From: Prolixibacteraceae bacterium
GTDB taxonomy: Bacteria > Bacteroidota > Bacteroidia > Bacteroidales > Prolixibacteraceae
Length of the DNA: 64,000 bases
NCBI GenBank assembly: GCA_019459485.1
Contig: JAIBEZ010000058.1
Location: forward strand, 1 to 64,000
Direction of reading: 5' to 3'
In this document: positions 6,515 to 52,677 of the stretch, piece by piece
How the letters are laid out: every line of letters begins with the position of its first letter
How positions within the stretch are numbered: position 1 is the first letter of the stretch
Program-made: the position numbers and the translations under genes
The notes under the pieces: generated by a model
Database searches by the model: none
Seen by the model: only the letters and a program-made list of their open reading frames with translations
Told to the model about the DNA's origin: nothing

Positions 6515-6925
6515 TCAAATTGTAAGATCGCCAGCTGCTTCGGGTTGATAAATTATTTCATCAATTCTGATTTTTGTCAAGCCTCCCGGAACCATCCACT
6601 CGATTAAATCCCCCACCCTGAACCCGATCAGGGCAGTTGCAACAGGAGAAAAGATTGAAACTCTTTTTTCCTTTAAATTCGCTTCATTTGGATACACTAT
6701 TTTAAATTCCTGCTGTTTTCCGGCATCGACAAATGTTATTTTCACAACTGAATTCATTGTTACTACATCACCCGGAATTTTATCCGGATCAAGAATTGTA
6801 GCAGAATTTAATTCATTGATCAGTTTTTCCGCTTCTGATGCAGCAATCGTTTTATTTTGCATTGCTTCACCAATTTGCTTTTGTATTCTGATATAATCCA
6901 GCCTATTTACAATAATATTTTTCAT
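6515..6925 (-). CDS. Rnk/GreA-GreB C-terminal-domain family factor
   Basis: 136 aa, the same length as E. coli Rnk. The N-terminal 40 residues are a short helical hairpin; the remainder is the FKBP-like GreA/GreB C-terminal fold (VVTMNSVVKITF, FKIVYPNEAN, ISIFSPVATALIG-like segment, VGDLIEWMVPGG). It lacks the long coiled coil needed for transcript cleavage, so an RNA-polymerase-binding modulator like Rnk is more likely than a cleavage factor. It is cytoplasmic and lies 87 nt upstream of relA on the same strand. Which Rnk-like role it plays here is not shown. Confidence 0.8.
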   Translation of the reverse strand: MKNIIVNRLDYIRIQKQIGEAMQNKTIAASEAEKLINELNSATILDPDKIPGDVVTMNSVVKITFVDAGKQQEFKIVYPNEANLKEKRVSIFSPVATALIGFRVGDLIEWMVPGGLTKIRIDEIIYQPEAAGDLTI

Positions 6926-7001
6926 GATATTCTGTTTTAAATTACCAATTTTAAAATTCTGATTAAGTTGCTAATAAATAGCGATTGAAAAAATCGCACA
7001 T

Positions 7002-7030
7002 AAAAAAAGGCTACCAAATGGCAGCCTTTT
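7002..7030 (-). terminator. Terminator after ferritin gene
   Basis: Hairpin AAAAGGCT (7005-7012) / AGCCTTTT (7023-7030) with extension through CC/GG; the minus-strand RNA ends in a U-run. A second small hairpin GCGATT/AATCGC lies at 6981-6997. Confidence 0.75.
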
Positions 7031-7051
7031 GCAAATTATTATTTGTAAAAA

Positions 7052-7564
7052 TTATACTGCCGCATTTGGATCAACAAAGACTCGCTGTCCGAATTCACGA
7101 TCCATCATAAAAATTCCATTACCTTGTCCGTCGATAAGCTTGAGTGTGTCCAGAATCTTTTGAACGTTGGCTTCTTCTTCAACCTGTTCATCAATAAACC
7201 ACTTCAGGAAACTTTGAGAAGCATGGTCGCTGGCTGCTATCGCAACACTCATCAAATTATTAATCAGGTCGGTAACATGGGCTTCGTGCACCTGTGTCTT
7301 TTCAAATACGTCAACAATTCCACCAAAATCAACCGGTACCTGTTCGATCGCTTTCAAAACTACTTTGCCATTGCGTTCGGTCAGGTAATTGAAAAATTTC
7401 AGCGCATGTGCCGCTTCTTCCTGATACTGAACTTTCATCCAGTTGGCAAAACCCGAAAGACCCATGTCTTCAAAGTAGGCAGCCATAGAAAGGTAAAGAT
7501 ATGCAGAATAACTTTCGGCATTGATCTGTGCATTTATTGCATCTAATACTTCTTTTTTTATCAT
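7052..7564 (-). CDS. ftnA: Non-heme ferritin
   Basis: Iron-storage ferritin of 170 aa from the ATG at 7564 (MIKKEVLDAINAQINAESYS). The frame continues upstream to 7639, but that part is a low-complexity Lys/Phe stretch, and a -7-like box at 7604-7597 would lie inside it, so the shorter start is chosen. Ferroxidase-centre residues are present: the Glu of INAESYSAYLYL, the EEAAH motif (YQEEAAHALKFF), a Glu in the helix before EKTQVHEAH and Glu-rich DEQVEEEANV. It oxidises Fe(II) and stores Fe(III) in a 24-mer in the cytoplasm. Confidence 0.92.
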   Translation of the reverse strand: MIKKEVLDAINAQINAESYSAYLYLSMAAYFEDMGLSGFANWMKVQYQEEAAHALKFFNYLTERNGKVVLKAIEQVPVDFGGIVDVFEKTQVHEAHVTDLINNLMSVAIAASDHASQSFLKWFIDEQVEEEANVQKILDTLKLIDGQGNGIFMMDREFGQRVFVDPNAAV

Positions 7565-7596
7565 AGCTCTATGTTTTTCATTTTTTTTTAAAAATA

Positions 7597-7604
7597 CAAA
7601 ATTA
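7597..7604 (-). promoter_or_regulatory. -7 box of ferritin gene
   Basis: TAATTTTG on the minus strand (7604-7597) is a perfect TAnnTTTG and lies 33 nt before the chosen ATG. No convincing -33 TTTG is seen at the right distance. Confidence 0.4.
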
Positions 7605-7673
7605 TATTTAGCCTTGAACTTAAATTTAAATTTGAACAAGAAAATACCTGAAAAGTTTCAAAAATGATAACAA

Positions 7674-8318
7674 TCAGTCATGAAAATCGAGGTTGAATTT
7701 TTGTTTGAATTCATTCAGCACCGGATTTTTCTGCATCATCATCTGTAATTTTTCCGAATCAGAAAAAATAACCCGTTCCGATTCATTTTTTTCCAGTTTG
7801 GTAATTATTTCAATTCCCGAATTTCGGAGTTCTTTGCGCAACCACGAAACAAGTTCCGGTTTTATCTGTCGAACATCTTCTTCCTGAACTGAATTTCCGA
7901 TTTTTAGCAATAATTTATTTCCATCAGTTATTTCAGGAACATTTGAAAGGGCAGAACAAAGACTTGGACGGTCGGCCATTTTATCCAAAAATTCAATCCA
8001 TTTTGCCGTCAGTTCATCCTGGGTAAACGATTCAAAATCATTTTCCTGATACTGACTAAAAATGTTTTTCTGGGGATCATCCAATAACTTTTTTTCCTGA
8101 CTGCCTCCTGAAAGTGCATCTTTGATTGACGGGCTAAACGAGCTCCCCATTTTTCGGATTACCTTCATTGTACCCGGCTTTTCAACCGGTGGAAGATTGT
8201 TTGTTACAACAGCGGTAGTGATTTCAGGTTGTGATACCGAAGCAGCAGACTGAGACGGCTGTGCATCTGTCAGGTTGAAGATCGGCAAAATCGCCGTTTC
8301 ACCGGTTTCGTCAACTAT
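7674..8318 (-). CDS. dnaX: C-terminal (tau-specific) part of DnaX, in the -1 frame
   Basis: About 214 codons that continue dnaX in the -1 frame immediately after the A10 run at 8318-8327. There is no ATG near its beginning, only a TTG at 8288, and no separate promoter or ribosome site, so an independent gene is unlikely. The segment starts with a Pro/Ser/Thr-rich linker (VSQPEITTAVV, NNLPPVEKPG) and ends with a folded domain (KWIEFLDKMADRPSLCSAL to the C-terminus NEFKQKFNLDFHD), which resembles the C-terminus of Bacteroidota DnaX. In E. coli the corresponding tau part binds DnaB helicase and polymerase alpha. Joined to the upstream part the product is about 581 aa. Confidence 0.8.
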   Translation of the reverse strand: MVDETGETAILPIFNLTDAQPSQSAASVSQPEITTAVVTNNLPPVEKPGTMKVIRKMGSSFSPSIKDALSGGSQEKKLLDDPQKNIFSQYQENDFESFTQDELTAKWIEFLDKMADRPSLCSALSNVPEITDGNKLLLKIGNSVQEEDVRQIKPELVSWLRKELRNSGIEIITKLEKNESERVIFSDSEKLQMMMQKNPVLNEFKQKFNLDFHD

Positions 8319-8327
8319 TTTTTTTTT
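8315..8327 (-). promoter_or_regulatory. dnaX: Putative dnaX frameshift/slippage site
   Basis: The minus strand reads TTA AAA AAA AAA TAG: ten consecutive A followed at once by a zero-frame stop. The A_AAA_AAA heptamer is in the correct phase for tandem -1 ribosomal slippage; a run this long also favours polymerase slippage, as known for Thermus dnaX. A short hairpin CGGC/GCCG lies about 28 nt downstream. A -1 shift opens the frame to 7674. A homopolymer sequencing error is the alternative. Confidence 0.7.
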
Positions 8328-9418
8328 AAGGTAAGCTGAGTTATTTTGATAATTGCCAATTCAACCAACAACCTTTTATTCTGACTGGCTTTGTACTGAA
8401 GGTCGCATTCGTTGGCAATCTGCAGCGCGCCAATCAGAAAATCATTGTCGCAGTGTGTTGCCTGAACTTTGTATTTTTCCTTGATTTCGCCACCGACTTC
8501 GAGTAACTGAATAGTGACAGGATCTTTGCAAACCATCACATCCCTGAAATGAGAGCTAAGTCCGGTAATAAAATGGTGACCATCGAAACCATGGTCGAGA
8601 ATTTCGTTAAAAAGCAGCAAACTTCCGGAGATGTCATTTTTCAGGAACAAATCGACCAATCTGAAATAATAATCGTAGTCGAGTACGTTCAGGTTCGAGA
8701 TAACATCTTTGTAAGAAATATTTCTTCCTGAGAAGCTAACGATCTGGTCGAAAATCGACAATGCATCACGCATGGCTCCATCCGCCTTTTGAGCAATCAC
8801 GTTCAGCGCTTCACTCTCAATCGAAACAGTTTCGCCGGCGGCAACATGCGACAAATAACCAGCGATATCACTTATTTTGATACGGTTAAAATCAAAAATC
8901 TGACAACGTGACAATATGGTTGGAATAATCTTGTGCTTTTCGGTAGTGGCTAAAATGAAAATCGCATGGCGCGGCGGTTCTTCAAGTGTTTTCAGGAAAG
9001 CATTGAATGCACTCGATGACAACATGTGAACCTCATCGATGATATAAACGCTGTATTTCCCGATCTGCGGCGGAATCCTAACCTGATCGGTCAGGTTGCG
9101 GATGTCGTCAACAGAATTGTTCGAGGCGGCATCCAGTTCATGAATATTATAGGAGCGGTTTCCGTTGAAAGCCATGCAGGACTCGCATTGGTTGCATGGT
9201 TCAATTTCTGCCGAAAGGTTCTGACAGTTAATGGTTTTGGCAAAAATCCGCGCGCAGGTAGTTTTTCCGACCCCACGTGGGCCGCAAAACAAATAGGCAT
9301 GGGCAAGCTGGTTATTTTTAATCGCATTTTTCAATGTCGATGTAATCGATGCCTGACCAACAACTGTTTGAAACGTATCGGGTCTGTATTTCCGCGCTGA
9401 AACAATAAAATTCTCCAT
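8315..9418 (-). CDS. dnaX: DNA polymerase III clamp loader subunit DnaX (gamma-like zero-frame product)
   Basis: 367-aa AAA+ ATPase from the ATG at 9418 (MENFIVSARKYRPDTFQTVV); the frame extends to 9469 but without family similarity. Visible motifs: Walker A GPRGVGKT (46-53), the four-Cys zinc module (Cys65, Cys75, Cys78, Cys81), Walker B YIIDEVHML (about 114-122), sensor 1 LATTEKHK and the SRC motif TILSRCQIF. Domain III follows and the frame ends at LTLKKK-stop inside the A10 run. The zero-frame product therefore contains domains I-III, equivalent to E. coli gamma. It loads the beta clamp at replication forks. Frameshifting would add the tau tail. Confidence 0.93.
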   Translation of the reverse strand: MENFIVSARKYRPDTFQTVVGQASITSTLKNAIKNNQLAHAYLFCGPRGVGKTTCARIFAKTINCQNLSAEIEPCNQCESCMAFNGNRSYNIHELDAASNNSVDDIRNLTDQVRIPPQIGKYSVYIIDEVHMLSSSAFNAFLKTLEEPPRHAIFILATTEKHKIIPTILSRCQIFDFNRIKISDIAGYLSHVAAGETVSIESEALNVIAQKADGAMRDALSIFDQIVSFSGRNISYKDVISNLNVLDYDYYFRLVDLFLKNDISGSLLLFNEILDHGFDGHHFITGLSSHFRDVMVCKDPVTIQLLEVGGEIKEKYKVQATHCDNDFLIGALQIANECDLQYKASQNKRLLVELAIIKITQLTLKKK

Positions 9419-39985: not shown

Positions 39986-40221
39986 ACCTGCCACGCGATA
40001 TTGAAGCGTCAAAACTTATTAAGGCACTTCGCAAGTTAGGCTACGAAACTACCCGCCAAAGCGGAAGTCATATAAGGCTCACCACCCAACAAAACGGTCA
40101 ACACCACCTTACCATTCCCAACCACGATCCTTTAAAAATAGGAACCCTAAATGCCATAATCACCGAAGTGGCAAAACATTTAGGAGTTTCCAAACAAGAG
40201 TTGGTTGAGAGGTTGTTCTAA
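39982..40221 (+). CDS. hicA: HicA-family mRNA interferase toxin
   Basis: 79 aa, dsRNA-binding-like fold. The catalytic His is in RQSGSHIRLTTQQ near residue 30; the following HHLTIPNHDPLKIGTL is the second half of the signature. It cleaves mRNA independently of codon phase when not bound by HicB. Gene order here is antitoxin first, the reverse of the E. coli hicAB order. Translational coupling to hicB keeps the two in proportion. No mobile-element genes flank the pair. Confidence 0.9.
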   Translation: MNLPRDIEASKLIKALRKLGYETTRQSGSHIRLTTQQNGQHHLTIPNHDPLKIGTLNAIITEVAKHLGVSKQELVERLF

Positions 40222-40545
40222 AACCCATTTATTTGTTCCGGGTTCAAACCTCCTAATCTCATTACTTAAACCTGTTCTTTCGGCCAAATGGAAATTAATA
40301 CATCAATAAAATACATAATCTCCTCTGTCATTAACAGAAGTGAAATAGGAATCCGAACGATTTTAAAATATAATAACTTCAAATATGTTATTTAGATTTA
40401 AGCAAAATAAACCCGTTAAAAAAAGAGTACGCTTTTGAGCTGAATAGAAGAAATCAACTATTTTTAACGCTAGCAAACAGGAGTGATTTTTGGATTTGCA
40501 TTTTTGATTTCCTGAAAATCACCGACAACTAAAAAACTACTGAGA
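40222..40545. other. Intergenic region before the GH92 gene
   Basis: 324 nt, AT-rich. A GTGATTTT (about 40481-40488) with inverted AAAATCAC (about 40513-40520) lies just upstream of the GH92 start and could be a regulatory palindrome. No RNA gene or open frame is recognised. Confidence 0.4.
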
Positions 40546-42798
40546 ATGACTACTAACAAACTTTACCTGCCAATCATGCTGGCAGTAACCATTTTAATGT
40601 CTGGATGCCAGGAAAAAGCCGAAGACCTTATTAAATATGCCAATCCGTTAATAGGAACCAGCGAGTCAACCGGACCGAGCGGTTTTAAACACAACGAGAA
40701 TACGGAAGCATTCGGGCAGGTAACTCCCGCTGTTTCAACCCCTTTCGGAATGACCCAATGGACGCCGCAAACCCGCGACACAGAAAAAAAATGTCTTGCG
40801 CCCTACTATTATAACGACACCAAGATTCAGGGATTCCGTGGTTCTCACTGGCTTTCCGGGTCGTGCGTACAGGATTACGGCAGTTTTACTATTATGCCGA
40901 CAACCGGCTACCTGCGCACTTTTGCCAGCGAGCGCGCCACATTGTTAATGCACGAAAGCGAAACCTCAACACCTGCCTACTATTCGTGTATGTTGCAGGA
41001 ATACATGACTTTTGTTGAAATGACGGGAACTGCCCGAGCAGGATTTTTTAAGTTTTCGTACCTGAAAAATGACCAGGCCATTGTTCTTGTTACTCCAAAC
41101 AGCGACGAAGGCCAGGGATACATAAAAGTTGATCCGGAGAAACAGGAAATATATGGTTACAATCCAGTTCACCGCATTTATCAGGGCTGGGGACAACCGG
41201 CAGGATTCAGCGGTTATTTTGTTGTAAGGTTCAACCGCCCGCTTGACAATTACGGTTGCTATTTCCAGATGGAAGATTTTAAACAGCAAACCGAGATTTC
41301 AGGAAAACCGGATATTGGCGCTTACGCAGCTTTTCAGATTAAAGAAAACGACGTGATTCTGGCCAAGGTTGGAACTTCGTTTACAAGCATTGAAGCGGCA
41401 CGTGCCAATCTCGACGCTGAAATTCCTCATTGGGATTTTGCAAAAACCAAGGCTGAAACGGAACAAGTCTGGAACGAAGCGTTTTCAACCATAAAACTTA
41501 AAGGCGGAAAAGAAGAAGATTATACTAAATTTTACACCGGGCTTTACCATTCGATGATTTCGCCCCGCACATTCAGCGATGTGAGTGGCACTTACCCTTC
41601 ATTCGACGGAAATAAAAGCATTCAGAAAATGGAAAACGGGCAGGTGTATTACGACGATTTTTCGTTGTGGGACACTTTCAGGGCACAGTTGCCACTTGTT
41701 AGCCTTGTTGCACCCGACAAATATGAAGACATGATGAAATCGCTTGTTCTGAAAGCAGAACAGGGCGGATGGATGCCCATTTTCCCGATGTGGAACAGCT
41801 ACACTTCGGCGATGATCGGCGACCATGCGAACACTGCTTTGGGCGACGCTTACCTCAAAGGTTTCGATATCAATATTGACCAAGCTTGGCCGTACATGCG
41901 AAAAAATGCGTTTGAAGTTTCTGAAGGGGAGGATTACATCAATGGCAAAGGCCGAAGGGGAATGAAGTCGTACCTCGAAAACGGATACATTCCGCTGGAA
42001 GACAGTGTAAAAGAAGCTTTTCACAAAATGGAACAAACTTCGCGCACACTTGAATATGCCATGACCGACGATGTACTTTCGAAAGTTGCCGCAAAATACG
42101 GAAAGACAGAAGATGCCCAAATACTGGAAAAACGCGGGCAGAATTACCAGCGTGTTTTCGACGGTGAAACCAAAAGTATGCGTGGCCGCCATCTCGACGG
42201 AACATGGAGCGCAGATTACAATCCACTGGCACGTGCATCATACCTCACCGAAGGAACGCCATTGCAGCACATGTGGTTTGTTCCGCAGGATATTCCAGGA
42301 TTGTTCGACCTGATTGGCGATCAAAAACAAGTTCGGGAAAAACTGGATGAACTCTTCGATACCGGCGAATACTGGCACTCGAACGAACCTTGCCACCACA
42401 TTGCCTATTTGTACAATTATCTGGGCGATCCGGCTGAAACACAGCGAAAAGTGAAGAACATTCTGGCAACCGAATACAATGCATTCGATGGAGGAATCCC
42501 CGGAAACGATGACTCCGGACAAACTTCGGCATGGTATGTTTTTTCGGCCATGGGTTTTTATCCTCTTTCACCCGGAAGTGGCGAATACCAGCTCTCCTCT
42601 CCTATTTTCACTGAAGTTGAATTAAACCTGAACCCGAAATATTACCCCGGAAAGAAATTTAAAATCACCATCGACGATCCGGATACCTCAAAAGCATTCG
42701 ATAAAGTGAATTTGAATGGAAAAGAAAGTCAGTTTGTGCTGAAACACGAAGACATACGAAAGGGCGGAAAATTGGAATTCTCAAATTCTGTAAAATAA
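40546..42798 (+). CDS. GH92 alpha-mannosidase lipoprotein
   Basis: 750 aa with a lipoprotein signal (MLAVTILMSGC). GH92 segments: KYANPLIGTSES at the mature N-terminus, GFRGSHWLSGSCVQDYG, YDDFSLWDTFRAQLPLVSL, PIFPMWNSYTSAMIGDHANT, WHSNEPCHHIAYLYNYLG and GNDDSGQTSAWYVFSAMGFY. The Glu of the SNEPCHHIAYLY segment and the Asp residues of GNDDSGQ are the acid/base region of this Ca-dependent inverting family. It removes alpha-mannose from N-glycan-like or yeast-mannan-like substrates at the cell surface or in the periplasm. The neighbouring convergent LytTR operon is not obviously linked. Confidence 0.93.
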   Translation: MTTNKLYLPIMLAVTILMSGCQEKAEDLIKYANPLIGTSESTGPSGFKHNENTEAFGQVTPAVSTPFGMTQWTPQTRDTEKKCLAPYYYNDTKIQGFRGSHWLSGSCVQDYGSFTIMPTTGYLRTFASERATLLMHESETSTPAYYSCMLQEYMTFVEMTGTARAGFFKFSYLKNDQAIVLVTPNSDEGQGYIKVDPEKQEIYGYNPVHRIYQGWGQPAGFSGYFVVRFNRPLDNYGCYFQMEDFKQQTEISGKPDIGAYAAFQIKENDVILAKVGTSFTSIEAARANLDAEIPHWDFAKTKAETEQVWNEAFSTIKLKGGKEEDYTKFYTGLYHSMISPRTFSDVSGTYPSFDGNKSIQKMENGQVYYDDFSLWDTFRAQLPLVSLVAPDKYEDMMKSLVLKAEQGGWMPIFPMWNSYTSAMIGDHANTALGDAYLKGFDINIDQAWPYMRKNAFEVSEGEDYINGKGRRGMKSYLENGYIPLEDSVKEAFHKMEQTSRTLEYAMTDDVLSKVAAKYGKTEDAQILEKRGQNYQRVFDGETKSMRGRHLDGTWSADYNPLARASYLTEGTPLQHMWFVPQDIPGLFDLIGDQKQVREKLDELFDTGEYWHSNEPCHHIAYLYNYLGDPAETQRKVKNILATEYNAFDGGIPGNDDSGQTSAWYVFSAMGFYPLSPGSGEYQLSSPIFTEVELNLNPKYYPGKKFKITIDDPDTSKAFDKVNLNGKESQFVLKHEDIRKGGKLEFSNSVK

Positions 42799-42806
42799 CA
42801 ATTGGG

Positions 42807-43541
42807 TTACACACCTGCCACCGAACCGGTAAAATTCAAGGCGCTCAATACCGCATTCTTGAAATTCCGGCCAATTGGCAGTTCTTTTCCTTGAATTTCT
42901 ATTGTATTGGCAGTGAAGGCTTCTATCTTGCTGACCGAAACAATGTATGATTTGTGAATCCGCAGAAAGTTTTCAGCGGGCAGTTTCTCTTCCATCAAAG
43001 CCATGCTGGTTTTGGTAATAATCTTACGTTTATCGGTGTAAATCTGAACATATTCGCTTAATCCTTCAATGAACCTGATTTCGGAGAGATACACTTTTAC
43101 AACCTTTTTATTTTCTTTCACATAGATAAAACTTTCTTCCTGAACTTTTTCCGAAGTAGAATTGGAACTAACCTGAACTTCGTCCTGATTCGTCTGGTAA
43201 AACTTGTTCACCGATTTCAGGAAGCGTTCAAAAGTGATGGGCTTCAGTAAATAATCGACCACATCAAGTTCAAAACCTTCCAAGGCATATTCACGGTAAG
43301 CCGTGGTAATAATCACTTTTGGCGGATGTTTCAGTGTTTTTAGAAATTCGATGCCGGTAATCTGAGGCATTTGAATGTCCATAAATACCAGATCAACATG
43401 CTTTTCGCGTAAAATGCCCAATGCTTTCATTGCATCGCTGCATTCGGCAACAATTTCAAAATTCTCCAGTTTTTCAACATGCCCACGTATGAGTTCACGT
43501 GCCAGCGGCTCGTCGTCAACAATCAAACATTTTGTCTTCAT
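42807..43541 (-). CDS. LytTR-family response regulator
   Basis: 244 aa. The receiver domain (1-120) has DDE at residues 9-11, the phosphoacceptor Asp55 in DLVFMDIQMPQ, Thr in VIITTAYREYA and Lys in YLLKPI. The LytTR DNA-binding domain occupies about 140-238 (FIYVKENKKVVKVYLSEIRFIE, LRIHKSYIVSVSKIEAFT). It is the last gene of a five-gene operon and the only output protein in it, so it is the probable partner of the sensor kinases upstream. It begins 4 nt after the ACE-like gene. Confidence 0.92.
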   Translation of the reverse strand: MKTKCLIVDDEPLARELIRGHVEKLENFEIVAECSDAMKALGILREKHVDLVFMDIQMPQITGIEFLKTLKHPPKVIITTAYREYALEGFELDVVDYLLKPITFERFLKSVNKFYQTNQDEVQVSSNSTSEKVQEESFIYVKENKKVVKVYLSEIRFIEGLSEYVQIYTDKRKIITKTSMALMEEKLPAENFLRIHKSYIVSVSKIEAFTANTIEIQGKELPIGRNFKNAVLSALNFTGSVAGV

Positions 43542-43545
43542 AGTA

Positions 43546-45291
43546 TCACAATTTATGCGTTTCTGTTTTCTGCTTCAACTGATTGACAAAATACATCGAA
43601 TTCAGCGGTTCGCCTGTCGCCTTTTCGATCAGTTTTTCCCATGGCAAAAGGTTACCGTAGCGGTAAATATTATCTTTCAAATACTGTCCGACAGCTTTAT
43701 TATTCGTGTAAACACCGTTTGTTTGCTTTGTGACGCGGCTTTCGATGGCATGTTGCAATTGAGCGGCAAAAACATCGGCAAGTAAAAAATTGTGGGTCGA
43801 ACACGACAGGCTGGTTGCAAACTTATTGGCCGCCCATACACCTGAATTCTTTTCAGCCGGATAACTGATTCCCAAATATTTGAGGTTCAGTTTGTACCAC
43901 AACGAATCCAGGTTCTGATACGGATTCCGGTAAATTTCCTGTTCAAAGTCTGACAGGGCAAGCAATTTACGGCATCTGAACAACTGATCGACTTGCTGCA
44001 AATGCCGACAAACAACCACAATCTCTTTCTGGTTGTCCTCATTAAGATTTAACTCATTTTTCAACCAACTGTAATCTGAAGCGAGGTTTTCAAAATATCT
44101 GGCAATCCCTTCATAAATAACCGGGATCGGAGTTTTCAGCAAATAAGGAATATCGTCAGAAATAGAATTGTAATGAGATGCGTGTCCGCCAAGGTGCATC
44201 ATTCGGTATATTCCGTTGTGTGAATTCTGAATGCCGGAAATCAGGCGAATGTCGTTTTTGAAATCAACATTGATCATGGCGGTTAAGGATGACTTTTCCG
44301 GACGGTATTCCAAATCGCTGTTATCAATCACATCCTGGATGGGCAGGCCAATTCCTTCAAAAAACTCAGCTGTTTTCTGAATCGGATCAATATCCACAAA
44401 AAGGGAATCCATTTTTGCGATAAATTTTTCAGGCAGGTAACCGGTTCGCTCACTGTCGTAATGCCAGGGTTTTAATTCGCTCACCGGAATTTTGAAACGA
44501 TCTGCCAACAACTTATCAATTCCCCGCTTTGCTTCAAAGAACTGGCTTCTGGTATTCATTTCAATTTCATCAATCATCCGTTTTATCTTTTGCGGAGTCT
44601 GATCTTTCGATTCTAGCGAAAGTGTATAATAATCTGGATACCCAAAATTAGCGGCGAAATCATTTCTATCCTTTACCATCCGGATAATATCAGGTGCTAC
44701 AATCTTGCCTTGCTGCTGGTAAGCCTCAAAAATACGTTTCCGTACAGATTCATCATTGGTGTGTTTCTGAATGGAATCAATTTTATTGATACCATATTCT
44801 TTGCCATCAATTTCAATTTTCAGTACCGAAAATACCTGCCACAATTTCATTTCATTTGATATAAGTTTCTGATATTTTTCGGGTTCTATTTGTGGCCCCA
44901 TAAATGCCTGATAAAGAACATTCAACTGGCGAACCAGCAAGGTGTCGGTAATCAATCCTGAATATTTTAATTTCCGTAGAAGCTGAAAATCCTCTTCATT
45001 GGTAAATACATTTTGGGTGATGGACGAAAACCTGTCGGGATTAAAAAAATTGGAATCTTTTTGATTTGTTTTGTTGAATTCGAGATCGATATCCATTAAT
45101 TTCCGGTAATCTTCCTCGTTGCCAGAAACAGTGGCGTTCCACAATGCAACTGCACTTTCCATCGAATAATTCCTGATCATGTCAACCTTCTGATCAATGT
45201 AATGCTGCAGAATTTTTTCGGCCTGTTGTTTTTCATTTAAACAAGCAGAGACAGCAAAAAACAGTCCTATGGGAATGAGAATCTTACGCAT
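43546..45291 (-). CDS. ACE-like (M2-family) pseudo-peptidase lipoprotein
   Basis: 581 aa with a lipoprotein signal (IGLFFAVSAC). The fold matches angiotensin-converting-enzyme-like (M2) metallopeptidases: long helical N-terminal half, ILQHYIDQ, RNDFAANFGYPDYYTLSLES, then MMHLGGHASHY. The zinc-binding motif has His366 and His370, and Glu394 (IYEGIARYF) stands exactly 24 residues after His370, as Glu411 does after His387 in ACE. The catalytic Glu that normally follows the first His is Leu367 (codon CTT at 44193-44191). Metal binding may persist but peptidase activity is unlikely. It overlaps the upstream kinase gene by 8 nt. A sensory or ligand-binding role in the two-component system is my inference. 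Confidence 0.8.
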   Translation of the reverse strand: MRKILIPIGLFFAVSACLNEKQQAEKILQHYIDQKVDMIRNYSMESAVALWNATVSGNEEDYRKLMDIDLEFNKTNQKDSNFFNPDRFSSITQNVFTNEEDFQLLRKLKYSGLITDTLLVRQLNVLYQAFMGPQIEPEKYQKLISNEMKLWQVFSVLKIEIDGKEYGINKIDSIQKHTNDESVRKRIFEAYQQQGKIVAPDIIRMVKDRNDFAANFGYPDYYTLSLESKDQTPQKIKRMIDEIEMNTRSQFFEAKRGIDKLLADRFKIPVSELKPWHYDSERTGYLPEKFIAKMDSLFVDIDPIQKTAEFFEGIGLPIQDVIDNSDLEYRPEKSSLTAMINVDFKNDIRLISGIQNSHNGIYRMMHLGGHASHYNSISDDIPYLLKTPIPVIYEGIARYFENLASDYSWLKNELNLNEDNQKEIVVVCRHLQQVDQLFRCRKLLALSDFEQEIYRNPYQNLDSLWYKLNLKYLGISYPAEKNSGVWAANKFATSLSCSTHNFLLADVFAAQLQHAIESRVTKQTNGVYTNNKAVGQYLKDNIYRYGNLLPWEKLIEKATGEPLNSMYFVNQLKQKTETHKL

Positions 45292-46366
45292 TTATTTCAG
45301 GAGTTTGGGTACAGTTTTTCTTGATTACCAGACGAACGAAAAACACACAATTTTCTTTCCTTATCTCTAATTCATGATTTTTAGGATAGATCAGTTCAAG
45401 TCGCCTTTTGATGTTTGTAAGGCCAACGCCTTCTTCAATTTCATTATCGAAACACTTTGATTTCGGGATACTGTTGGAAGCTTCGAACTCAAAAATATTA
45501 TCGCGCACTCTGATCAGAAGTTTGATCCAGGGTGATTCAGGATCGGGGCTGCTGCCGTGTTTAAAGCAATTTTCGATAAATGTATAGAGCAGCATCGGCG
45601 GAATCAGGCAATCAGGATTGTCAACATCCTTTTCAAAAGTGTACGAAAGCCGGTCGGAATAACGCAATTCTTCGAGCTGAATGTAATCTTCAATAAGCTT
45701 AATCTCTTTTTTAACAGGCACCTCAATGGCATTGCACTCGTATAAAATATAGTGAAAAAGGTCGGCCATTTTGGAAATAACAATCGGGGTTTTATCGCTT
45801 TTCTGGAGTGCCAGAACGTATAAATTATTGAAGGTATTGAACAGAAAATGAGGATTTAACTGCGCTTTCAGTACCTGCAATTCTGAAGCCAGATGTTTTC
45901 GTTCGGCCTCATTGGCAAGGTTTCTGAAATTCAACCAGTTTTTGTAATACTTAAACATCGCAAACAGAATAGCAGGACCCAAAATCCAGATCAGGTTCCG
46001 AAAAAATATATCTGCATTAAACCATTCCGTCGGATGTAAAACCTCCGGAATGAACAATGCATAATAAACGTATCTGCCGGTTAAAATCCTTAAACAAGCA
46101 GCTGCACAAGCCGCAAAGGCAAGTGCCAGAAAAAATTGCCAGTACTTGCGGTTCAGAAGAAAAGCAGGTACCAGAAAATAAACTACACCATAAGTAAAAA
46201 ACACAAATACCGGCAAATGAACCAGGAAATTCAGAAGGTAAAAAGAATAGGGGAAATTTTGCTGGTAACTAAATATGAATGATCCGATCAGCACAAAGAA
46301 TGTCCAAAACACAAGGTGAATCACCGGGCGTTTATTCAGGAATTGATAGATAGTTTTTAATGCCAT
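45284..46366 (-). CDS. LytS/YehU-type sensor histidine kinase
   Basis: 360 aa. Four membrane helices fill the first 145 residues without a recognisable extracellular sensor domain. A coiled linker leads to the His_kinase domain with AQLNPHFLFNTFNNLY (phosphoacceptor His173), the N-box FIENCFKHGSSPD (Asn266) and the G-box EEGVGLTNIKRRL. All catalytic motifs are intact. It probably phosphorylates the LytTR regulator encoded two genes downstream. The start overlaps the preceding degenerate kinase gene by 10 nt. Confidence 0.92.
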   Translation of the reverse strand: MALKTIYQFLNKRPVIHLVFWTFFVLIGSFIFSYQQNFPYSFYLLNFLVHLPVFVFFTYGVVYFLVPAFLLNRKYWQFFLALAFAACAAACLRILTGRYVYYALFIPEVLHPTEWFNADIFFRNLIWILGPAILFAMFKYYKNWLNFRNLANEAERKHLASELQVLKAQLNPHFLFNTFNNLYVLALQKSDKTPIVISKMADLFHYILYECNAIEVPVKKEIKLIEDYIQLEELRYSDRLSYTFEKDVDNPDCLIPPMLLYTFIENCFKHGSSPDPESPWIKLLIRVRDNIFEFEASNSIPKSKCFDNEIEEGVGLTNIKRRLELIYPKNHELEIRKENCVFFVRLVIKKNCTQTPEINA

Positions 46367-47409
46367 GGCTCGATATTGATTTCGATGGACACTTCCACAA
46401 AGTTAATTTCAAAATTCGACATAACCTTGTGATTTTCAGGATAAAAATAGTCAAGGTATTTCAGGCAGTTTTCAATGATACTGGGATTAAATTGTTTGCT
46501 GAGCAAACGATCGTTCCAAATAGTCATCGAAAATAGAAGATGTTGAGGCTCTGTTTTGATAAGTAAGGAATAATCTGTATTGTTTTCAGATTCATCCAGA
46601 ATCATAAACCCTTCCTCAACCAATTGAAAAAAAAGGAACGGAGGAATCCGGAAACCATTCAATTCACCGGAAACCTGAAAATTAACATCATAATCAGCAG
46701 GTAAACTCATCAGTTGAATGTCGATGTAACCTTTGATTAATTCAACTTCCTTCTGAAGTAAAATCTTATCTGATCTGTTATCTGAAATCATGCTGTTCAT
46801 CAGATTCGATAAACGAATGATCATTTCCGGTGTTTGTGGTGAATGATTCTTTGCCAGTTCCTCAAGTTTGTCTGCCACGTTCAGAAGAAATCGCGGATAC
46901 GACTGAATTTTAAGCAGTTCAATCTCTGTTGACATTTTTCGGTTCAGCAAATCAGTCTTCTCACCCATCTTCAAATTCCAGAAACGGATGACTTTTACCG
47001 AAAGAAAAACAATAACAACGTATTCGTTACCCAAACCGTTGATCAGGATATTCTGCCAGCCTAAATAATTACCCGGTTGCTTATACTCAGGTTTTACCAG
47101 CGCCCATACCACTTCGTTGCTGATAACCATCTCAAGGATTGATGCAATAATAAGCAAAACAATGATCCACAGCGCAAATAATCCATAGTGAGGTCTGAAA
47201 AAATATGCCGGAACAAGCCAGTATGCAATAAGGTAGGTATGAGCCATGAATATAGGAAGTGTAACCAGATAATAAACTAACCAGGCCATAAAATCATGCA
47301 TTCCAAAGCCAAAACTTTGAATGAAGGTAAAACCAAAAATCCAGCACATCCAGAAAATGGTGTGTTGTGTCAACAGTTTTTTATCTATATGTATCGAAAA
47401 TTCAGTCAT
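46357..47409 (-). CDS. Degenerate LytS-type histidine kinase homologue (pseudokinase)
   Basis: 350 aa with the same four-helix membrane domain as its two neighbours. The kinase core is altered at every motif: the phosphoacceptor position in PHFLFN is Arg173 (YPRFLLN; codon CGA at 46893-46891), the N-box ENCFKHGS is replaced by VEEGFMILD (264-272), and no GxGL G-box is present. Yet the frame is intact and overlaps its neighbour, so it is a maintained protein and not a decaying gene. It may dimerise with the flanking kinases and modulate them. Start at 47409 lies 6 nt after the first kinase gene. Confidence 0.85.
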   Translation of the reverse strand: MTEFSIHIDKKLLTQHTIFWMCWIFGFTFIQSFGFGMHDFMAWLVYYLVTLPIFMAHTYLIAYWLVPAYFFRPHYGLFALWIIVLLIIASILEMVISNEVVWALVKPEYKQPGNYLGWQNILINGLGNEYVVIVFLSVKVIRFWNLKMGEKTDLLNRKMSTEIELLKIQSYPRFLLNVADKLEELAKNHSPQTPEMIIRLSNLMNSMISDNRSDKILLQKEVELIKGYIDIQLMSLPADYDVNFQVSGELNGFRIPPFLFFQLVEEGFMILDESENNTDYSLLIKTEPQHLLFSMTIWNDRLLSKQFNPSIIENCLKYLDYFYPENHKVMSNFEINFVEVSIEINIEPWH

Positions 47410-47415
47410 TTCAAT

Positions 47416-48471
47416 TTAGCTAAGATCCAAATCAAGTTTAACTGTAAATTCCTGTTCTTTTGGCTGTACAACCAAACTGTATTTCTTTGGGTAGATTAAA
47501 TCCAGACGTTGCCTTAATCTTACAAGACCCTTATTTTCTGTTGCTTGAACCAATTGAATTTTCTTTGGCATACTGTTTTTTGTCTCAACCGAAAGCCTGT
47601 TTCTTTTACAATTCAGATTAAGTTCAATCCACGGATTACCGGCGTCAGTGCTGCTTCCATGTTTAAAGCAATTCTCCACCAGAGAAAACAACACGAATGG
47701 GGCAATTACCTGTTGACTGATTTCACCTTTTACATTATTAATCATATTTAGCCGTGAACCATAGCGCAATAACTCAATCCTGATATAATCCTGAATCATG
47801 GCTATTTCATTGTTCAGAAGAACTTTTTCTTGTTGCCCATCCACAATTGCAAAATGCAGCACCCGTTTAAGTCTGCAAATCAAATCCAATGTTTCGTCAA
47901 AATTACGGAGCGACAATGCATATAAATTATTGAGCGTATTGAACAGGAAATGAGGCTCAAATTGATTTTGCAATAATTTAAGGTTCAGTTCGGTATATTT
48001 TTTTTGCAATATTTTGTGTTGTTTTTCGGCTATCAGCCAGTCTTTGCTGAATTTTGCAATCACAAACAACGCAACTATAAACGACATATCTTTCGTATTG
48101 ACCAGGAGAAACCGGGCGCTGAGCATTCCTTTGGAACCAATGAATTCAGGAGAAATGGCTGAATAAAAAATATAGTCCGAAACACTCAGCTTGATTGCCG
48201 ACAGCACGAATCCAAGCGCAAGGAAGGAGACTGCGAACCACGCATATTTTCTTCGAAGTACGAGGAACGGAATTAGAATAAAAATGGTGAGATATCCGTA
48301 TCCAAGAAAAATAAGCGCATTGATGAAAGTGAGGTTCAGCTGGTATAAAAAAGTCTTTTCGCTGTTCCTGCTGTAAAGAACAAGCGTAAAAACAAGCACC
48401 ACAACGGTAAAAAAAACAATGTGCCTGCTTATCCTGAATTTCAAAGCATTATCAAACAAAAATTTATTCAT
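47416..48471 (-). CDS. LytS/YehU-type sensor histidine kinase
   Basis: 351 aa, first gene of the operon. Four membrane helices lie in residues 15-145. The kinase domain contains QNQFEPHFLFNTLNNLYAL (phosphoacceptor His174), N-box LVENCFKHGSSTDAG (Asn267) and a G-box variant ENKGLVRLRQRL. It lacks an obvious extracytoplasmic sensor domain, so input may come through the membrane helices or a partner such as the co-encoded lipoprotein. It shares about the same layout as the third kinase, suggesting internal duplication. Confidence 0.92.
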   Translation of the reverse strand: MNKFLFDNALKFRISRHIVFFTVVVLVFTLVLYSRNSEKTFLYQLNLTFINALIFLGYGYLTIFILIPFLVLRRKYAWFAVSFLALGFVLSAIKLSVSDYIFYSAISPEFIGSKGMLSARFLLVNTKDMSFIVALFVIAKFSKDWLIAEKQHKILQKKYTELNLKLLQNQFEPHFLFNTLNNLYALSLRNFDETLDLICRLKRVLHFAIVDGQQEKVLLNNEIAMIQDYIRIELLRYGSRLNMINNVKGEISQQVIAPFVLFSLVENCFKHGSSTDAGNPWIELNLNCKRNRLSVETKNSMPKKIQLVQATENKGLVRLRQRLDLIYPKKYSLVVQPKEQEFTVKLDLDLS

Positions 48472-48766
48472 TTTTTACCTGGATTAGCTTTCCCTGACTA
48501 TTTTTTTCCTGTCATCAAACTCAAATAAAAATAGTAAAAGATACAATCAGCTTAGATGACAAGCTGCAAACAACACAAGGAGATCAGTTAATTACCTGAC
48601 TGAATAATTGATAACCATTCGCCCGGCGGAATGCATCGTTGAGACGGAGTTTGTTGTATTTCGCAGACAGAAGACTTGAAATCAAATAATCAGAGTCGTC
48701 AAACAAAAAAAGTTTCCTGACCATCAGATCAGGAAACTTTTTAGAAATTAAGACTAAAATTAAATC
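48472..48766. other. Intergenic region upstream of the LytTR operon
   Basis: 295 nt. The half near 48700-48743 holds the terminator of the adjacent orphan gene; the half nearest 48471 should hold the operon promoter, but no perfect TAnnTTTG is seen on the minus strand. Confidence 0.4.
48702..48743 (-). terminator. Terminator after the orphan secreted-protein gene
   Basis: Perfect 14-bp arms AAAAAGTTTCCTGA (48707-48720) and TCAGGAAACTTTTT (48729-48742), ending in U-run on the minus strand. Confidence 0.8.
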
Positions 48767-49258
48767 TCAGATTTGCGCCCTGAATTGTTCTTTTATCAGC
48801 AATGGGAAATAACAGGCAATTAAACCCAATAGTTCTTCCTCATTTTTTGGAGTTTGAGAAATCACCCTTTGTGTATAATACTGCGAATTATCCAGCATTG
48901 CATTTACAGTGGCAAGATCAACTTCACGATATTCTTCATTCACCTTTTTAACACCAAATACATGCTTGTTACAGATGTATTCAATTTCAAAATCCTCAGT
49001 CCTGACAATAAAATTCATACATTTCTTTGTCTTCTTTACTCCGATCAAAACCGGAGAATCCGATTCAGAATAAACCAATTGATAAGTATTCAGAACTTCA
49101 TTGCCAATGGTGATGGCTTCGGGTGAAAGACTGATAGTGTACTGTCCTAATTCGGTCAATGACTGTCCACTAACGACGGTGGTTCCTCTTTCTTTTGCAA
49201 CTGCGAATAAACTTACCAGCAGCAAACCAAATGTTAAAATTGCAAGTTTTGTTTTCAT
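48767..49258 (-). CDS. Secreted protein of unknown function
   Basis: 163 aa with a signal peptide (MKTKLAILTFGLLLVSLFAVA). The mature part begins with a beta-rich segment (YTISLSPEAITIGNEVLNTY, VLIGVKKTKKCMNFIVRTED) that has two Cys (KKCMNF and YICNKH) possibly forming a disulfide, followed by a helical C-terminus (EEELLGLIACYFPLLIKEQF). I do not recognise the family. The gene has its own terminator and is transcribed toward the LytTR operon; a functional link is not evident. Confidence 0.6.
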   Translation of the reverse strand: MKTKLAILTFGLLLVSLFAVAKERGTTVVSGQSLTELGQYTISLSPEAITIGNEVLNTYQLVYSESDSPVLIGVKKTKKCMNFIVRTEDFEIEYICNKHVFGVKKVNEEYREVDLATVNAMLDNSQYYTQRVISQTPKNEEELLGLIACYFPLLIKEQFRAQI

Positions 49259-49445
49259 GATTTCTTGATTTTAAATAATTGTTTTTTAATAGCTGAAGTA
49301 AATTTATTTCAATTATTAAGGCCCATTATTACAAATCAATCAACGAACGTTTTTCAGGCAGAAAAACAAAAGATCTGAATACAAACGCCATTCGTTTACT
49401 GCATTTTGCTGACAAATTAGATTTCGGAACACTGACAACTGATAC

Positions 49446-49467
49446 TCCTGCCCGCGGCAGGCGGGGA
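49446..49467. repeat. Short GC-rich inverted repeat
   Basis: CTGCC-CGC-GGCAG within a CCTGCCCGCGGCAGGCGGG tract, just downstream of a TPR gene. Much more GC-rich than its surroundings; REP-like remnant. Confidence 0.4.
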
Positions 49468-49479
49468 ACACTTTTTTCC

Positions 49480-50721
49480 TCACTTATTCCCGATAAACAA
49501 ATCCTCCTTTAATTTTCTCATCCGCTCAAGGGCATAATCGGCGTTCTTTGCCTTCTCCCCTGCGGTTTTCAAATAGGTCGAATAATAATTCAGCGCCAGC
49601 GTTTTGTTGAAGTTGAACTCTTCGTAGGTAGTAGCAATCTCGAACAAAATCTCAACCCGTTCATTGTTGCATTCCCAGGCTTTTTGCAATGCTTCAATCG
49701 ACTTTTCGAATTCGCGGTTGTTGCCGTAAACCTGCCCCAGATGATGGTACATTTCGGTCATGTAAACCGGCTGAGCACAAGCAATTGCCGCAATCAGGTA
49801 TTCGGCGCTCCGGTCATATTTTGCAAGGTTTTTATAAGCCAGTCCCAGGTAAAAATGCACAAACTGATCGTTCGGAACCATAGAGAAACACTTTTCCAGA
49901 ATCTGAATCGCCGTTTGCTCATTCTTGCAGAAATATTGACATATTCCATAATTTTTCAACACATCAAAAGCCGAATCATTCTCGGCCAGGTATTTTTCAT
50001 AAGGAAATATTGCTTTTTCGTATTCCTGAAGTTCAAACAAGGCGTCGGCCTGCCGGAGCAAAATAGTTGGATTCTGCGGAAAAACCGACAAAGCTCTTGA
50101 GCCGGTTGCAACGACTTTTTCAACATCTTTTTTGCGTTTATAAATGGCAATCAGGTTTAAGTGCGAGCTAAAATCACCCTGATTTTCAGCCAAAACCTGC
50201 TCATACAAGCGGATAGCAAGTTCGGGTTTCCCTGTACGAAAAGCAGAAAAGGCAAATTGTTTATTGAAATATACATTCGTCGAATCGACTTTGTGAATGG
50301 CCTCGAAGGTTTGATATGCCCGCACAAAATCGTCGATACTAATATAAGCCCGTCCCAGCTTTGCTTTCAGACTTAAATCTTTTGGCGAAAACTCAACGGC
50401 CCGACGATAGCACTCAACCGTTTGGTATATATTTCCCAGACTCGAATAATTTTCACCCAATTCGGCCAGATACAAACTATTTTGCGGGTCATAAAACAAA
50501 GCTGTTTCCAGCGATTTACAGGCCAAAAGCGGCATGGACTGCTCTTTGTAAATAACAGCCTGTTTGAAATACAATTCAGCGTCAGGTTTCTCCTGAATTT
50601 TGGCTGAAATCTGATCCAAAGCTTTGTCGTACTTCTTGTTCAGGATAAGCTCATCGATTGATTGGGCAAATAAATTAAACGGCAAAATGAGCAGAACGAG
50701 GATGATTGTTTTCTGAATCAT
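49480..50721 (-). CDS. Exported TPR-repeat protein
   Basis: 413 aa with a signal peptide (IIILVLLILPFNLFAQ-like N-terminus). The rest is TPR units: LYLAELGENYSSLGNIYQTV, LGRAYISIDDFVRAYQTFEA, HFYLGLAYKNLAKYDRSAEY and HHLGQVYGNNREFEKSIEAL, about ten in all, typical of Bacteroidota periplasmic scaffolds. No catalytic domain. It lies downstream of the blaI-blaR1 pair, separated by 128 nt, and could be read from the same transcript. Confidence 0.8.
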   Translation of the reverse strand: MIQKTIILVLLILPFNLFAQSIDELILNKKYDKALDQISAKIQEKPDAELYFKQAVIYKEQSMPLLACKSLETALFYDPQNSLYLAELGENYSSLGNIYQTVECYRRAVEFSPKDLSLKAKLGRAYISIDDFVRAYQTFEAIHKVDSTNVYFNKQFAFSAFRTGKPELAIRLYEQVLAENQGDFSSHLNLIAIYKRKKDVEKVVATGSRALSVFPQNPTILLRQADALFELQEYEKAIFPYEKYLAENDSAFDVLKNYGICQYFCKNEQTAIQILEKCFSMVPNDQFVHFYLGLAYKNLAKYDRSAEYLIAAIACAQPVYMTEMYHHLGQVYGNNREFEKSIEALQKAWECNNERVEILFEIATTYEEFNFNKTLALNYYSTYLKTAGEKAKNADYALERMRKLKEDLFIGNK

Positions 50722-50849
50722 GGCGGGTAAATTTTTGGTTATTGGGTTTGGTAGCTTCCTCCTTAACTTCCGAATAGAATGTGATTAAAAACAGAATTAT
50801 CCTTTAAACCTGTCAGGCTTTGGAATCCTGACAGGTTTAACAGAAAATT

Positions 50850-52298
50850 TTACTGCAAAACGAAATTGATTGGAATGGTGTATTGAACGGCAACAACGTT
50901 TCCTTTATGTTTTCCCGGGTTAAAAGCGGGAAGGCTATTCACAACACGAAGCGCCTCAGCATCAAGTGATGGATCAACTCCTCTGATAACTTTGGCATTC
51001 GAAACGGAGCCGTCTTTATTAACCACAAAAGATACAAAGACTTTACCCTGAATACCTTTTTCCTGAGCAACAACCGGATATTTAACCGCGTAAGCAATAA
51101 ATTTCCGTAATTCCAGCTGTCCACCAGGAAATTCAGGCATTTCATCAACCATAGTAAATACTTCTTCCTGAATCTGTGATGATTTTTCCTGAGCTCCATA
51201 TCCAACTACAACCAATTCATCCACTTTATTTTTTTTAGCAGTGAATTCTAGCTGGCCTGTTGATAAATCTGTTTTTAAATCATAATCACTTGATTCGGCA
51301 ATAATGCTTTTCAATTTTTCTATTCCTGCTGAATCACCGGATATTTGGAGGGCATGCCCATCTGCAACCAGGGTTACCGATTTTTCACTGGAGGTAATTT
51401 CTGTATTTACCGATTCCTTTTGTTCACAGGCAAATACGGCAACTAAACTGGCTGCCATGATAAATCCTACAAGGAATTTTAGGTTGGCTATTTTTCTTGA
51501 TTTTATTTTTGAGATCATTTTGATACGGTTTTTAATTAACGAATAATTGAAGTTGTTGGCAATCACAACTTGTTCGCCAACATACTGATTGAGTAGGATC
51601 TGCTTGTACCACGAAGGCGCAGTTCCGTGAGAGATAACGGCCTGGTCGGCCAAAAATTCATGATTTTCGCGCAGCGCCCGTCTGAACATCCAAAAGAAAG
51701 GATTAAACCACTGAAATACAGCAACGAACTCAAGAACAAGCACATCAAATGTATGCCCCTGCCGAATGTGCTGTTTTTCGTGCTCGAGCATTTTCTCCCA
51801 GCCTTTGGTATTTTGCAGGTTTTTGCTTACGAAAATGTAATTCAGAAAAGAAAACGGACTTAACTCCCGGTCCAGAATAACCAGCTTAATTCGTCCTTCA
51901 GGAACCACCCGGTTTTGCGCAATTAACCGGATAATCTGGTAAATCCGAAGAAAAAGTATTCCGGCGAAAAACACCACTCCCAATAAATATACATAACCCA
52001 ACAAGCTGTAATTCAATACAAACTGCTCGGCGCCGTGCGACAATGCAGTTCCGTAAATGGTTACCGAACTCAATAAATTGACATACGGAGTTACTGTAAC
52101 TTCCTGCAACATGGTTGCCTGTGGCGTATAAAACGGAATGTGCAACAGTGGCAAAAATGCCGAGAAACCGATTGAAACCAGCAAAAACCAGCGGTTCACA
52201 CTGAAAAAAGTTTCTCTCCGTAAAAACAGGAAATAAACGAGCGCAAAAAGGCTCAGGCTTATTCCCGATTCAAGCAGGTAATTTATAAAACTAGTCAT
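50850..52298 (-). CDS. BlaR1/MecR1-family M56 peptidase fused to a TonB C-terminal domain
   Basis: 482 aa. The N-terminal part has four membrane helices and a cytoplasmic M56 zinc peptidase with EHEKQHIRQGHTFD (HExxH form HEKQH near residue 174). A further membrane/lipid-like segment VAVFACEQKES follows near residue 287. The last 100 residues are a TonB-type C-terminal domain (MPEFPGGQLELRKFIAY, GKVFVSFVVNKDGS, IPINFVL). Between them is VDELVVVGYGAQEKSSQ, resembling the plug motif of SusC proteins. It probably senses an envelope signal and cleaves the BlaI repressor encoded just upstream, with which it overlaps by 8 nt. Confidence 0.85.
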   Translation of the reverse strand: MTSFINYLLESGISLSLFALVYFLFLRRETFFSVNRWFLLVSIGFSAFLPLLHIPFYTPQATMLQEVTVTPYVNLLSSVTIYGTALSHGAEQFVLNYSLLGYVYLLGVVFFAGILFLRIYQIIRLIAQNRVVPEGRIKLVILDRELSPFSFLNYIFVSKNLQNTKGWEKMLEHEKQHIRQGHTFDVLVLEFVAVFQWFNPFFWMFRRALRENHEFLADQAVISHGTAPSWYKQILLNQYVGEQVVIANNFNYSLIKNRIKMISKIKSRKIANLKFLVGFIMAASLVAVFACEQKESVNTEITSSEKSVTLVADGHALQISGDSAGIEKLKSIIAESSDYDLKTDLSTGQLEFTAKKNKVDELVVVGYGAQEKSSQIQEEVFTMVDEMPEFPGGQLELRKFIAYAVKYPVVAQEKGIQGKVFVSFVVNKDGSVSNAKVIRGVDPSLDAEALRVVNSLPAFNPGKHKGNVVAVQYTIPINFVLQ

Positions 52299-52677
52299 TG
52301 GGGGTTGGATTTTCAGGTTCCAAATCTTTTCCTACTTCCTTGATCAATTCTTCAAGTTCTGAGAGGCTCATTTTGTCTTCTTTGGCAAAAAACGAAACCA
52401 TTTCCTGAAATGAATTGCTAAAATAACCATTCAGAAAATTTTTGAAATACGATTTCGTATATTCCGGCTTGCTGATCAGCGGAAAATACTGATGTGTTTT
52501 TCCATACGCGTAATGGTCAACAAATCCTTTCTTTTCCAGAATACGAATAATGGTAGAAACCGTGTTGTATGCAGGTTTTGGCTCCGGAAGCTTTTCAACA
52601 ATTTCTTTTACGAAAGCTTTTTCGAGTATCCACAATTCCTGCATAATTTGTTCTTCAGCTTTGGTCAATTCCTTCAT
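52291..52677 (-). CDS. BlaI/MecI-family transcriptional repressor
   Basis: 128 aa from the ATG at 52677 (MKELTKAEEQIMQELWILEK); the frame opens at 52722. A winged-helix domain occupies about residues 1-75 (YNTVSTIIRILEKKGFVDHY is the recognition region), followed by a dimerisation/cleavage tail (FKNFLNGYFSNSFQEMVSFF). It overlaps the blaR1-like gene and both lie behind palindromic AACTAA-N4-TTAGTT sites, so autoregulation with release by BlaR1-mediated cleavage is expected. No beta-lactamase gene is adjacent. Confidence 0.9.
   Translation of the reverse strand: MKELTKAEEQIMQELWILEKAFVKEIVEKLPEPKPAYNTVSTIIRILEKKGFVDHYAYGKTHQYFPLISKPEYTKSYFKNFLNGYFSNSFQEMVSFFAKEDKMSLSELEELIKEVGKDLEPENPTPND

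Follow-up and report, generated by a model that had tools for sequence, protein, structure and literature searches.

Several described signalling systems are close to the locus reported here. QseG, a lipoprotein encoded between a kinase gene and a regulator gene, directly activates its kinase (PMC12691602). The catalytically dead histidine pseudokinases DivL and an evolved variant of ChrS act as modulators (PMC9491836); the ChrS variant arose from laboratory evolution, and it is native ChrS, not the truncated variant, that is seen to heterodimerise with HrrS. A 5TMR-LYT membrane domain is said to mark LytS-type kinases (PMC10653868). Herein, a five-gene operon is analyzed at positions 42807-48471 of a 64,000-nucleotide stretch (the window) of a Prolixibacteraceae genome (assembly GCA_019459485.1, contig JAIBEZ010000058.1). 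It encodes three kinases (K1, K2 and K3), a lipoprotein resembling the peptidase ACE, and a LytTR response regulator. Gene order, cassettes, loss of catalytic residues, selection, fold, the association with a small exported protein (s163) and a promoter element were computed. The operon is a composite of two separable input cassettes with one shared regulator: cassette A consists of K1 and the pseudokinase K2, often with an extra kinase, K0, and cassette B consists of K3 and the lipoprotein.

The five genes lie on the minus strand in the 5' to 3' order K1-K2-K3-lipoprotein-regulator (Table 1). The junctions, in the same order, are a gap of 6 nt, an overlap of 10 nt, an overlap of 8 nt and a gap of 4 nt, so the coordinates bear out the layout given in the initial annotation, which was made from the sequence alone. 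The five genes are probably transcribed as one unit. The arrangement recurs in other genomes and is therefore beyond chance. The last gene carries both a receiver and a LytTR domain by Pfam, in keeping with the single LytTR regulator claimed before.

The distribution of the genes was determined in a sample of 140 genomes of the family to which the window genome belongs. The lipoprotein profile matched 15 of these at E <= 1e-100, and the K2 profile matched 57 at E <= 1e-40, with 42 standing apart at E <= 2.5e-66. In all 15 lipoprotein genomes, the lipoprotein gene is positioned between K3 and the regulator. K1-K2 are found ahead of K3 in eight of them (complete in G000, G679, G692 and G689, cut in K1 in G695, on two contigs in G685, and with K0 added in front in G699 and G806), and the remaining seven carry K3-lipoprotein-regulator alone. 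Similarly, no lipoprotein match at E <= 1e-100 was obtained in 34 of the 42 family genomes with K2; the order K1-K2-regulator was present in 26/26 of those inspected, many with K0 in front. K1 was directly upstream of K2 in every one of the 35 genomes read (34 of the family and G301 of another family), with one locus truncated at its contig boundary. The separate occurrence of the cassettes indicates that the lipoprotein pairs with K3, and the pseudokinase K2 with K1.

Flanks are common to two-cassette and B-only loci in two sets of relatives. G692 and G689 share them with B-only G698 and G694, where the flanking block, read by eye, resembles trp genes; G699 and G685 share them with B-only G680. 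These common flanks indicate that cassette A was gained or lost as a unit. By parsimony on the lipoprotein tree of the 15 genomes, which is poorly resolved, the presence of cassette A changed five times, and the well-supported branches force at least two changes. The initial annotation had proposed one five-gene membrane complex holding all three kinases and the lipoprotein. The eight genomes with all genes in one cluster suit such a complex, but cassette B alone in 7/15 genomes, K2 without the lipoprotein in 34/42 and the repeated changes of cassette A make it improbable, and two modules fit better. The natural series of A alone, B alone and A with B, with shared flanks in both sets of relatives, makes the roles of the pseudokinase and the pseudo-peptidase approachable by whole cassette.

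Outside the family, K2 was matched at E <= 1e-55 in 6/393 genomes of the order sample, four of them in one other family (f80). K1 adjoins K2 in these four genomes, and K2 is without PHFxFN. Also in this family, a PF06580-like kinase that is short, at about 220-235 residues, and has PHFLFN intact was observed near K1-K2 (L081 of G301 at 8444-9103, and L173-L175); its length suffices only for the catalytic part.

All three kinases belong to PF06580, with matches of 67.3 bits for K1, 46.3 for K2 and 80.7 for K3 at a cut-off of 25.2. The window genome carries 11 PF06580 kinases and 12 LytTR genes in total. K3 has the canonical motifs PHFLFN, ENCFKHG and GVGLTN, as expected from its sequence for an active histidine kinase. 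K1 retains the His and Asn boxes; its G-box reads NKGLVRLRQRL, compared with EGVGLTNIKRRL in K3, and the first Gly and the Asn of the box are missing. Only K3 is thus fully canonical, and the earlier claim of two intact kinases stands in full for K3 and for K1 only in its His and Asn boxes. The abnormal G-box makes the activity of K1 uncertain, which counts against the role given to K1 below. The strict LytS-type label does not hold for any of the three, since no Pfam match to the 5TMR-LYT domain was found in K1, K2 or K3 up to E 0.1. A simple hydropathy scan gave four segments in K1 and in K3; for K2 it gave two segments under the stricter threshold and four under the looser one.

The claim that one kinase has lost all three catalytic motifs was confirmed for K2. 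PRFLLN replaces PHFLFN, VEEGFMILD replaces IENCFKHGS, and no GxGLxN box is present, so K2 is predicted to be inactive as a histidine kinase. Alignment columns were read in 35 K2 proteins (34 of the 42 family genes and that of G301), taken from 17 full neighbourhoods and 18 short loci. The phosphoacceptor His was missing in 35/35. It is replaced by Arg in 19, Lys in 10, Leu in 2, Ile in 2, Glu in 1 and Gln in 1, and Asn was found at the N-box column in only two. The replacement is thus Arg or Lys in 29/35 proteins, which suggests a selected basic residue over free drift. As a separate observation, K1 also lacks the His (PDFLFN) in one K1-K2-regulator locus (L141 of G792, 6732-7802 and 7872-8957), where neither kinase has a phosphoacceptor.

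The lipoprotein has 581 residues and a lipobox-like FAVSAC, by which it is predicted to be lipidated. By itself the window protein has no Pfam match other than M32. The G699 orthologue gives a 37-bit match to Pfam M2, and the three intact relatives tested (L082, L030 and L017) give M2 matches of 84-343 bits. When 41 relatives (15 operon copies and 26 others) were combined in a profile, it matched human ACE at E 1.5e-67. The window lipoprotein was modelled by AlphaFold2 with the same 41 rows, at a mean pLDDT (predicted local distance difference test) of 84, and a Foldseek search with the model found ACE, with a TM-score (template modelling score) of 0.75 to 9ss7. The M2 profile matches and the structural match support the label "ACE-like" of the initial annotation, and the protein is predicted to have the ACE (peptidase M2) fold.

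The active site was compared between the 15 operon copies and 36 other rows, consisting of 35 fetched homologues and the paralogue of the window genome; on the tree, 32 of the 36 are nearer and four more distant. The columns were matched by alignment to ACE, in which the residues concerned are His513, Tyr520 and Tyr523. In the window protein, HLGGH replaces HExxH, with all three zinc ligands retained. The Leu at the position of the base Glu is as claimed earlier, and the loss goes further, with Phe at the His513 position and the two Tyr positions occupied by Ser and Phe, respectively. The general-base Glu is present in 1/15 operon copies versus 36/36 others, and the catalytic His of ACE in 0/15 versus 36/36. 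Tyr is found at the Tyr520 position in 1/15 versus 31/36, at the Tyr523 position in 4/15 versus 36/36, and at the column after the Tyr520 position in 0/15 versus 36/36. The two zinc His residues are each retained in 13/15 operon copies versus 35/36 others, the zinc Glu in 14/15 versus 35/36, and all three ligands together in 13/15 operon lipoproteins. No operon copy has both the base Glu and the ACE His, so the clade is predicted to lack M2 enzyme activity. At the lost His position, Tyr is found in 7, Phe in 5 and other residues in 3 copies; an aromatic residue is thus kept in the cleft in 12/15.

The relatives outside the operon differ. In the phylum sample, the lipoprotein profile matched 26/395 genomes at E <= 1e-60, 25 of them other genomes with matches no better than 9e-104; nine of the 25 were fetched, and all nine (including L167) have HExxH. 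Among the 35 fetched homologues from the order and class samples and the own paralogue, HExxH is present in 35/36. This near-universal presence indicates that the inactive clade is seen, within the samples searched, only in the family of the window genome. The exception, L038 of G452, is an isolated M2-like protein that does not belong to the operon clade. Both of its zinc histidines are gone (YECGF), and its short flanks showed no match to a kinase or a regulator.

Selection was measured as the ratio of nonsynonymous to synonymous substitution rates (dN/dS) in two close pairs, G000-G679 and G692-G689, because the synonymous rate was saturated for most distant pairs. In this order, dN/dS was 0.152 and 0.184 for K1, 0.175 and 0.159 for K2, 0.161 and 0.101 for the lipoprotein, 0.038 and 0.065 for K3, 0.054 and 0.058 for the regulator, and 0.100 and 0.128 for s163, with Fisher p of 1.6e-12 or lower for both K2 and the lipoprotein. 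Every tested domain of these two proteins is under purifying selection. The reading frames of the 15 lipoprotein and 42 K2 matches have no inner stops. K0, K1, K2, K3 and the lipoprotein form one clade each, with bootstrap values of 99-100; support for the operon lipoprotein clade is 100/99, with G682 and G806 on long branches, and resolution is poor in the regulator tree. The two pseudoenzymes have long been conserved and are not decaying. The contrary explanation, that K2 and the lipoprotein are decaying paralogues, has in its favor that both are without the catalytic residues of their families and that the dead CA domain is the least constrained part of K2 (dN/dS 0.197 and 0.264). Selection is still detected in that domain (Fisher p 3.5e-5 and 3.1e-4), and the purifying selection, open frames and old clades already contradict decay, which is highly improbable; it was ruled out by the dN/dS of 0.10-0.18 and the conservation. 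Neither an unconserved cluster nor relaxed selection was found, the two outcomes on which, by the initial annotation, its view of the pseudokinase and pseudo-peptidase as maintained parts would have fallen, and that view is supported.

The kept ACE fold and the zinc ligands retained in 13/15 copies, together with the loss of the catalytic residues, fit ligand binding without hydrolysis, and on these grounds ligand sensing by the lipoprotein is favored. The precedent of QseG and QseE (PMC12691602, PMC6075780) makes direct activation of K3 by the lipoprotein plausible.

Some observations weigh against a zinc-binding, non-cutting receptor. G694 retains HEGGH and the Tyr at the Tyr523 position, though without the ACE His, and the Tyr residues still present at the Tyr523 position in 4/15 copies and at the Tyr520 position in 1/15 point in the same direction. 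Neither zinc histidine is left in G682 or G806, and G682 lacks the third ligand too, so zinc binding is not universal. The lipoprotein might still be an active enzyme by an altered mechanism, as the mostly kept zinc ligands, the Glu and Tyr of G694 and the Tyr523-position residues would allow; the loss of the ACE His in all 15 copies and the absence of any copy with both Glu and His make this quite unlikely. In another explanation, the lipoprotein acts on K3 as a structural activator or tether, like QseG for QseE, without binding a ligand, and its ACE fold was taken over as a surface for protein binding. The 15/15 linkage to K3 suits any obligate partner, the two copies without zinc histidines fit this view, and QseG activates its kinase through direct contact (PMC12691602). 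A pure tether would not need the three zinc ligands, or RMMHLGGHASHY, which is invariant across the six closest lipoprotein orthologues; a tether is accordingly somewhat unlikely, and a ligand-binding subunit of K3 is preferred.

The candidate output of the operon is s163, which is encoded upstream of K1 in the same direction and has a hydrophobic N-terminus. Its structure model has a pLDDT of 87, and no convincing fold match was found in the PDB (best E 0.53), no Pfam match up to E 0.1 and no NCBIfam match up to 0.01. It was present in 19 of the 25 neighbourhoods examined; of the six others, L077 and L135 stop short of that side, and L075, L079, L128 and L133 extend past it. Counted by hand at E < 1e-50, s163 was found in 47/49 genomes with either cassette versus 8/91 without (p 3e-26), a contrast that is overstated because the 20 proteins behind the profile came from system neighbourhoods and the cut was set post hoc. 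Within the genus, the split that is the only phylogenetic correction of these counts, it was found in 11/12 cassette genomes versus 1/11 others (p 1e-4).

Two conserved boxes precede s163. Box 1 (GAATGGCGTTKGTAT-like) is 135 bases before the s163 start in the window, and box 2 (CGTTYGTTGATT-like) is 44 bases past box 1. With variants, the boxes are present in the seven genus loci where s163 adjoins the operon, and they resemble LytTR half-sites. The box 1 profile was built from these seven loci, and other loci were scored against 1000 shuffles. Box 1 was found upstream of s163 in all four genus system genomes in which s163 is not adjacent (G680, G699, G695 and G685), with 0/1000 shuffles as good in each. 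By the same test it was absent in G706, G787 and G708 and marginal in G811 (p 0.047), all of other genera. From this promoter conservation and the neighbourhood, s163 is a probable target of the regulator. Some results argue the other way. Homologues of s163 occur in 119/140 family genomes at E <= 1e-8; G687 has s163 with box 1 (0/1000 shuffles as good) yet no K2 or lipoprotein match; box 1 was not found upstream of K1 by the profile test; and a scan of the own genome with the two-box pattern gave 22 matches versus 35 in the reversed control, so that no wider regulon was found. The family of s163, without a Pfam or NCBIfam match, is thus a larger one, often with several copies per genome. If the regulator acts there, the s163 promoter is a ready readout for the system.

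Taken together, the reading to which we give slightly better than even chances is a composite two-component operon, in which cassette B (lipoprotein of the dead-ACE type and K3) and cassette A (K1 and K2) converge on one LytTR regulator with s163 as the output. The lipoprotein would sit in the cell envelope, bind a peptide or comparable ligand, leave it uncut, and switch K3 through contact. K1 and K2 would most likely form a heterodimer, in which K2 gives the sensor half and sets the activity of K1; a modulating K2 fits the accounts of DivL and ChrS in PMC9491836. Phosphotransfer would follow, and the phosphorylated regulator would most likely switch s163. A stronger version is possible, though we lean against it: an ACE-type peptidase would have become a peptide receptor that no longer cuts and that drives a membrane histidine kinase, and it would have been combined with an obligate heterodimer of kinase and pseudokinase, two signals thereby being integrated by a single LytTR regulator in control of a small exported protein. 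If true, a dead ACE in the role of sensor subunit would represent a new type of envelope input to two-component systems.

The regulator is 79.5-97.5% identical to the window copy in the other 14 lipoprotein loci and 51-75% identical in eight fetched family loci without the lipoprotein. Its top NCBIfam match is BtsR, at 152 bits and under the cut-off of 246. The terminator-like hairpin in Table 1 comes from a consensus scan that gave 10 sites in the region versus 5.5 on average in shuffles, which is no proof of hairpin function. Rfam at gathering thresholds found nothing in 40000-52500. A GH92 glycosidase gene (window 40546-42798) converges on the operon; GH92 genes are present in 5/25 neighbourhoods and SusC-like genes, by a cluster reading, in 9/25, possibly by chance in this group. 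A BlaR1-like M56 peptidase domain fused to a TonB C-terminal domain is encoded at window 50850-52298.

Table 1 Features of the operon and its upstream region, in window coordinates.
Feature	Position	Strand	Remarks
K1, PF06580 histidine kinase	47416..48471	-	Four hydrophobic segments; normal His and Asn boxes, abnormal G-box
K2, predicted pseudokinase	46357..47409	-	PRFLLN instead of PHFLFN; without N-box and G-box; one clade; purifying selection
K3, PF06580 histidine kinase	45284..46366	-	All three motifs; immediately upstream of the lipoprotein in 15/15 genomes
Lipoprotein, predicted ACE (peptidase M2) fold	43546..45291	-	HLGGH; lacks the catalytic Glu and His but retains the zinc ligands
LytTR response regulator, common to both cassettes	42807..43541	-	Response_reg and LytTR domains
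s163, small exported protein, no fold assigned; probable regulator target	48767..49258	-	Neighbourhood and promoter conservation
Intrinsic-terminator-like hairpin between s163 and K1	48707..48742	-	16 pairs; consensus scan
s163 promoter box 1, GAATGGCGTTTGTAT	49379..49393	-	Conserved; also upstream of non-adjacent s163 in four genus genomes
s163 promoter box 2, CGTTCGTTGATT	49338..49349	-	Conserved; 44 nt downstream of box 1

No such system was found in the open-licence literature among the matches listed, which is not proof of its absence from print. The closest layout is that of QseE-QseG-QseF in Pseudomonadota, where a lipoprotein gene likewise lies between kinase and regulator genes with conserved linkage, as it does here in 15/15 genomes. 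The kinase and regulator families presumably differ and the lipoproteins are presumably unrelated; the likeness would be one of layout and way of working, set apart from homology to QseE, QseG or QseF. Unlike in QseEGF, a second cassette containing a pseudokinase can feed the same regulator. With BtsS/BtsR and YpdA/YpdB, the operon shares a LytTR regulator and PF06580 kinases, the family of BtsS; it differs from them in the absence of 5TMR-LYT, in three kinases per regulator and in the accessory lipoprotein. Like DivL and the ChrS variant, K2 is a predicted catalytically dead kinase and proposed modulator. Unlike the ChrS variant, K2 is natural, widely kept, of the PF06580 family, and located beside one fixed partner, K1. 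The lipoprotein shares its predicted fold with peptidase family M2 (ACE), in which the inactive relatives collectrin and C. elegans ACN-1 have non-enzymatic roles; unlike these, it is predicted to be a bacterial lipoprotein and is linked to a sensor kinase.

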